Positions 38,181 through 38,959 of a DNA stretch of 64,000 bases are shown piece after piece. The translations under genes and the position numbers were made by a program. The notes under the pieces were generated by a model, which was not told where the DNA came from, did not search any database, and saw only the letters and a list, made by a program, of their open reading frames with translations. The DNA lies in assembly GCF_001315985.1 (NCBI RefSeq), contig NZ_BBBI01000003.1, positions 1-64,000 on the forward strand, in the 5' to 3' direction. Source of the stretch: Vulcanisaeta distributa JCM 11216 (GTDB lineage: Archaea > Thermoproteota > Thermoprotei > Thermoproteales > Thermocladiaceae). Positions within the stretch are counted from its first letter, which is position 1, and the number at the start of each line of letters is the position of its first letter.

Positions 38181-38818
38181 GTGGCCTTTGAGAGACCAAT
38201 ACCATCAAGGTTAACCCTATTGAGACTTAGAAATCAGGAGAGGCTTTATAGGAGTATTAAGAAGACGGTTGAGGACGCGAGGAATGCAACCATACAGAGG
38301 ATTAGGGCGATAATACCCAAGCTCGAGAGCGCAAGAAAGAGTGTTTATGATGAGCTAGAGAAGGCATCACTAGCGCTTAAGGCCGCCATTTCAAAGATGA
38401 GCATTGAGGATTACGGAAAGTTAAGCGAGGTTGTAAGACCATCAGTTGATGTGGAGTTTACGGACATAATAATGGAGGGGGGGCTTAAGTTCAGGGGGGG
38501 CTTGAGTTTAGGGGGGGCGTTTCGAGTCCTAACTATGGCATATTCGCAATACCGCCGGAACTTGATAGCGCCTTGTACGGTATTTATAACAACTTCAGGG
38601 CAATCTCGGAAATGATGAACCTAGAGAGCCTATTCTATACGTTACTGGCTAGGGTCAGGGAGTACCAAAGAATGGTGAATGCCATAGACAATGTATTACT
38701 ACCCAGGATTGTCGAGAACGCGAGGTTCGTCAGGCTCAAGCTTGATGAGGATGAACGCGAGGAGTTCGTCAGGAGGATAGTGATTAATAGGCTCCTTGAG
38801 TCATTAGGTAGGCGTTGA
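38181..38818 (+). CDS. atpD: A-type ATP synthase subunit D (frame broken)
   Basis: It starts with PIPSRLTLLRLRNQERLYRSIKK (family PTRxxLLRLRxRLxLA) and ends with MVNAIDNVLLPRIVENARFVRLKLDEDEREEF, the conserved C-terminal helix of the central stalk subunit D. The middle is disturbed: three G7 runs within 45 bases (38477-38517), then a missing base near 38523. Repaired it reads SSPNYGIFAIPPELDSALYG. The three runs give MEGGLKFRGGLSLGG. Other ATPase genes are not in the window. Confidence 0.86.
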
Positions 38819-38832
38819 CTTGGTAAGTAAGG

Positions 38833-38840
38833 CTTAAGTA
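38833..38840 (+). promoter_or_regulatory. TATA-like box for the C/D box sRNA
   Basis: CTTAAGTA is centred about 24 bases before the C box, a fitting place for a promoter of the guide RNA. Confidence 0.35.
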
Positions 38841-38859
38841 CTTCATAGTGGCTTTAAAC

Positions 38860-38914
38860 GCAATGAAGACAGGAGGGATGCACCGAGCGGTGACGAAGGA
38901 TTTGAACGCTGATT
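38860..38914 (+). ncRNA. C/D box guide sRNA, predicted to target tRNA C56
   Basis: Boxes in order: C at 38862-38868 (AATGAAG), D' at 38883-38886 (CCGA), C' at 38890-38896 (GTGACGA) and D at 38909-38912 (CTGA). The 12-base D guide at 38897-38908 (AGGATTTGAACG) is complementary to the tRNA T-arm sequence GTTCAAATCC (positions 53-62). By the D+5 rule the fifth guide base before box D, G38904, pairs with C56. Spacing between boxes is normal for archaeal dual-guide sRNAs. The D' guide target is not identified. Guided Cm56 is known from Pyrobaculum aerophilum, where the protein methylase aTrm56 is missing. Confidence 0.75.
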
Positions 38915-38959
38915 ACCAACCCCCCCTCCTCACATCAAAGCAGCGCTTTAGTGAGAAAT

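Follow-up and report, generated by a model that had tools for sequence, protein, structure and literature searches.

The tRNA of archaea characteristically carries a 2'-O-methylated C56 (Cm56). In C/D box guide RNAs the methylated base is the one opposite the fifth guide base from box D (the N+5 rule). Cm56 has two described sources. Reviews (PMC5372725, PMC5372735, PMC7912444) assign aTrm56 to almost all archaea except Pyrobaculum aerophilum, where a C/D box sRNP makes Cm56. The P. aerophilum guide is credited to Renalier et al. 2005 in PMC7912444 and PMC5372725. aTrm56 (PF01994, COG1303) is a SPOUT tRNA Cm56 methylase, that is, an unrelated protein enzyme that makes the same modification.

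Here we describe a C/D box sRNA gene in the genome of Vulcanisaeta distributa JCM 11216, within a stretch of 64 kb that we call the window. Judged by its sequence, this sRNA belongs to the family of Cm56 guides that is known from P. aerophilum. The two guides share the predicted target nucleotide and the machinery, but the D' spacer, the gene neighbours and the 3' tail of the Vulcanisaeta sRNA differ, and its host belongs to another genus and family. We consider it highly probable that the RNA is a C/D guide that works with L7Ae, Nop5 and fibrillarin, pairs with tRNA positions 53-62 and directs 2'-O-methylation of C56 in place of aTrm56. We infer transcription, sRNP assembly and methylation as follows. 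The sRNA would assemble with the three proteins, its guide would base-pair with practically every tRNA, and the particle would put a 2'-O-methyl group on C56. The guide RNA would thus stand in for the SPOUT methylase, which is missing from the clade. Since the pairing site belongs to a folded arm of the tRNA, the guide would have to act before or during tRNA folding.

Table 1. Features of the sRNA locus in window coordinates.
Feature	Positions	Strand	Basis and remarks
C/D box sRNA, whole (C box to D box)	38863..38912	+	sequence; homologs in 42/44 genomes of two families
C box AUGAAGA	38863..38869	+	one mismatch to consensus RUGAUGA
D' box CCGA (CNGA; some relatives CUGA)	38883..38886	+	sequence, alignment
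C' box GUGACGA	38890..38896	+	sequence, alignment
D box CUGA	38909..38912	+	some relatives CGGA or CAGA; GA kept in all
D guide GGAUUUGAAC	38898..38907	+	complementary to tRNA positions 53-62 GUUCAAAUCC; invariant across alignment
Purine-rich part of D' spacer, AGGAGGG	38871..38877	+	complementary to 3' flank
Pyrimidine-rich 3' flank CCCUCCU	38924..38930	+	conserved in Vulcanisaeta; possible 3' tail
BRE/TATA-like promoter element AAGGCTTAAG	38829..38838	+	conserved in 11/11 Vulcanisaeta copies

The initial annotation had read four properly spaced boxes at this locus, and all four are present (Table 1). Their order, C-D'-C'-D with RUGAUGA-like and CUGA-like boxes, is that of archaeal C/D box sRNAs. 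The spacers measure 13 nt from C to D' and 12 nt from C' to D, within the usual 10-13 nt or so, and a gap of 3 nt (GCG) separates D' from C'. Each C-type box departs once from the consensus. D' reads CCGA, and in both D and D' the GA that forms the kink-turn is retained. At the gathering threshold Rfam has no match anywhere in the window. Below the threshold six Rfam families match the sRNA stretch (sR1, sR2, sR3, sR14, sR17 and sR35), all of them archaeal C/D box sRNAs. Four of these weak matches span 38859-38914 end to end. The six families resemble our sRNA in box order and spacing, but are distinct from it and carry different guides. Folded as an isolated strand, the sRNA has an unremarkable stability (z -1.4).

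The gene lies between the gene for ATPase subunit D, which is frameshifted in the assembly, and a gene with a SpoIIM domain. Both neighbours are those named by the initial annotation, and the order of sRNA and SpoIIM gene is conserved in Vulcanisaeta. A TATA-like box had also been proposed upstream. The box that is conserved is CTTAAG (38833-38838), which starts 30 nt before the C box and is part of AAGGCTTAAG. All 11 Vulcanisaeta copies carry this element or a close variant some 30 nt ahead of their C box. The TTTAAA that lies nearer, at about 38853-38858, shows no such conservation. In other genera, where the sRNA occupies other genomic sites, a TATA-like element likewise precedes most copies, at a distance of 15-36 nt. 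The BRE/TATA-like element would be well placed for a transcript start just ahead of the C box. Genes for the predicted protein partners are present in the same genome: fibrillarin (split into two frames in the assembly), Nop5 adjoining it, and L7Ae-family genes.

The assembly itself contains a systematic homopolymer artefact. The window holds 75 runs of seven C and 71 runs of seven G, as against one run of six C and three of six G (examples of the seven-base runs are found in 38477-38517 and at 38920-38926). When the sequence is aligned with relatives, their runs of 4-5 G appear as seven. Three inflated G runs split the ATPase subunit D gene (38181-38818) into two frames; the gene is intact in relatives. 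The split of the fibrillarin gene may have the same cause, and the low completeness score of the genome probably has. The draft of V. distributa JCM 11217 shows seven-base runs at the locus as well. Between C box and D box the sRNA contains no run of four, hence the gene is unaffected. The run of seven C in the 3' flank, just downstream, is probably inflated.

The D guide fits the T-arm of tRNA. The pairing stretch is 10 nt long (GGATTTGAAC, 38898-38907) and is the reverse complement of tRNA positions 53-62. The initial annotation had given the guide 12 bases, 38897-38908. Its complementarity to T-loop and stem holds, but not its length, as the two outermost bases do not pair: G38908 lies opposite G52, and A38897 opposite position 63. 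Counted upstream from box D, position 1 is G38908, position 2 is C38907 (pairing with G53), positions 3 and 4 are A38906 and A38905 (pairing with U54 and U55), and position 5 is G38904, which pairs with C56. The earlier placement of G38904 opposite C56 is thereby confirmed, and with G38904 at N+5, C56 is the predicted methylated base.

The Rfam tRNA model has 34 hits in the V. distributa genome, 30 of which were made into loci and examined. All 30 tRNA genes carry GUUC(A/G)A(A/G)UCC at positions 53-62. The guide pairs at 10 of 10 positions in every one of them, perfectly in 17 and with one G-U pair in 13, and the fifth base from box D always faces C56. Against the 16S and 23S rRNA of three congeners the D guide scores no better than shuffled guides when register is taken into account.

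To follow the guide through the phylum we used R1, a sequence-only model built from 19 aligned copies (these 19 are among the sequences that R1 finds). Two families of Thermoproteales, to which Vulcanisaeta, Pyrobaculum, Thermoproteus and related genera belong, are represented by 44 genomes, and R1 matches 42 of these at E values from 4e-5 to 5e-15. The two genomes that lack a match have a completeness of 54% and 76%; the guide is present in every one of the 24 genomes of these families with a completeness of 90% or more. Among 107 other Thermoproteota genomes there is no match at E ≤ 0.001, and the two marginal matches (E 0.006 and 0.009) extend over just part of the model. None of the phage records searched contains the sRNA.

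One model finds both the Vulcanisaeta and the Pyrobaculum genes, as expected of homologs. Within the 19 aligned copies GGATTTGAACGC is invariant and is followed by NGA. The C-D' half, which is longer or shorter in some genera, and the gene neighbours vary from genus to genus. The G next to box D, which faces G52 and does not pair, is also invariant. An invariant base without a partner argues for common descent and against repeated invention. One of the homologs, in genome G031, has an identical guide GGATTTGAACG and a CTGA box. This genome is probably that of P. aerophilum IM2, and its gene probably the published Cm56 guide.

Could the locus be a chance or vestigial look-alike, a fragment of a tRNA T-arm or mere intergenic noise? 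The core GATTTGAAC is the reverse complement of a common T-loop, fragments of which are frequent in genomes. Moreover, when 84,980 genomes were scanned, Pseudomonas and other bacteria were among those with an exact match to the pattern; we take these bacterial matches to be unrelated. However, the C'-guide-D pattern occurs exactly once in the window, where only 0.05 occurrences are expected by chance even with three mismatches allowed. Furthermore, the four boxes stay in register across seven genera with different flanks and are accompanied by a promoter element. We therefore assign a look-alike a practically negligible probability.

If the guide RNA replaces aTrm56, then its hosts should do without the enzyme. 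We searched for aTrm56 as PF01994 in the V. distributa genome, in the 44 genomes of the two families and in the 107 other Thermoproteota. The initial annotation had suggested such a search and named absence as support. There is no match in the V. distributa genome, a result that is weak alone because the assembly is of draft quality, with a marker-gene completeness of 67.75%; the complete relatives carry the argument. In the two families none of the 44 genomes has PF01994, whereas 101 of the 107 others do, including G026, which belongs to a third family of the same order. Guide and enzyme occur together in no genome, and nearly every genome has one of the two. These counts are not independent, since the genomes are related: the mutual exclusion probably reflects roughly one replacement event inherited by many genomes. 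The evidence is strong on presence and absence, not on repetition. The RNA-guided route thus very probably does extend to Vulcanisaeta, as had been proposed, but not as an isolated extension: the guide is common to both families, Pyrobaculum included.

Six of the 107 genomes have neither aTrm56 nor this sRNA, and a pattern search for a convergent guide in these six found none. Five of them are incomplete. The sixth, G145, is 99% complete and has fibrillarin. This member of the same phylum could use another route to Cm56, could have no Cm56, or could owe its apparent lack to a sequence error.

The distribution also bears on what the guide does. A real C/D box sRNA could serve mainly as a folding chaperone or assembly aid for tRNA, with methylation secondary or absent. 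Such a role would suit a guide that pairs 10 bases of the tertiary-contact region in all tRNAs examined. It would leave unexplained why N+5 falls exactly on C56, the very base that aTrm56 methylates elsewhere, and why the guide is found only where aTrm56 is missing. In addition, C/D-guided Cm56 has been reported for P. aerophilum. We give a chaperone role very little credence, and read the D half as a methylation guide for C56.

The D' half is a different matter. It could be a second working guide, for rRNA or another RNA site, which would make the sRNA a double guide. In Vulcanisaeta, conservation of the D' spacer AGGAGGGATG extends to 10 of 11 copies, as would suit a functional guide. But it differs between genera, and when six versions of it are compared with rRNA and tRNA in register, the best matches are no better than those of shuffled guides. 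Instead, the spacer is complementary to the sRNA's own 3' flank. A second guide is for these reasons quite improbable, though less so than a chaperone role.

The complementarity to the flank is found throughout Vulcanisaeta. All 11 copies have a pyrimidine stretch (CCCUCCU) some 8-15 nt past box D, and in all 11 it is complementary to the purine-rich D' spacer (AGGAGGG) over 7-9 bases. In one genome (G005) tail and spacer have both changed yet still complement each other (UGAGGAGGA with UCCUCCUCA). A single compensating change among related species is weak support for pairing of the tail. In another (G003) the pyrimidine stretch stays beside the sRNA although the SpoIIM gene is about 370 nt away. 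Other genera do not have the tail complementarity, except for one isolated match of 7 bases. Two alternatives would account for the conservation of tail and D' spacer: either the 3' tail serves to mask the D' half, or the two elements are conserved independently of each other. In the first case the Vulcanisaeta RNA would extend about 20 nt past box D, and CCCUCCU, by pairing with the D' spacer, would mask or switch the D' half. The particle would then be dedicated to Cm56 as a single guide, with an architecture specific to the lineage. We regard this as a speculative scenario that is unlikely to hold.

Two further observations concern anticodon loops. R1 has a second set of matches in Pyrobaculum genomes (L180-L185, E 0.003-0.009). 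We considered these as paralogs of the T-loop guide and rejected the idea, because their guide GGGATCTAAACG matches tRNA-Leu(UAG) at the anticodon loop and has U34 at N+5; the assignment to this tRNA was made by inspection. L180-L185 are a separate C/D box sRNA, whose D' spacer, CTCCAGGCTAG, may match the D-arm of a tRNA. Separately, the tRNA-Leu gene L067 (anticodon CAG by inspection) has an anticodon loop, GUUCAGGUCC / GTTCAGGTCC, that resembles a T-loop. The Cm56 guide could pair with this loop, with C34 in register and two G-U pairs.

Reviews present RNA-guided Cm56 as an exception in P. aerophilum, whereas our data place the guide across a clade. What we add is the range of the predicted guide: two families and seven genera, complementary to the distribution of aTrm56. 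Part of this range may already be on record in Renalier 2005 or in the Pyrobaculum survey of Lui 2018. The third family of the same order still relies on the enzyme. Hence the clade offers a well-bounded natural case in which a guide RNA would have replaced a protein enzyme, with species on both sides of the change available for tests.
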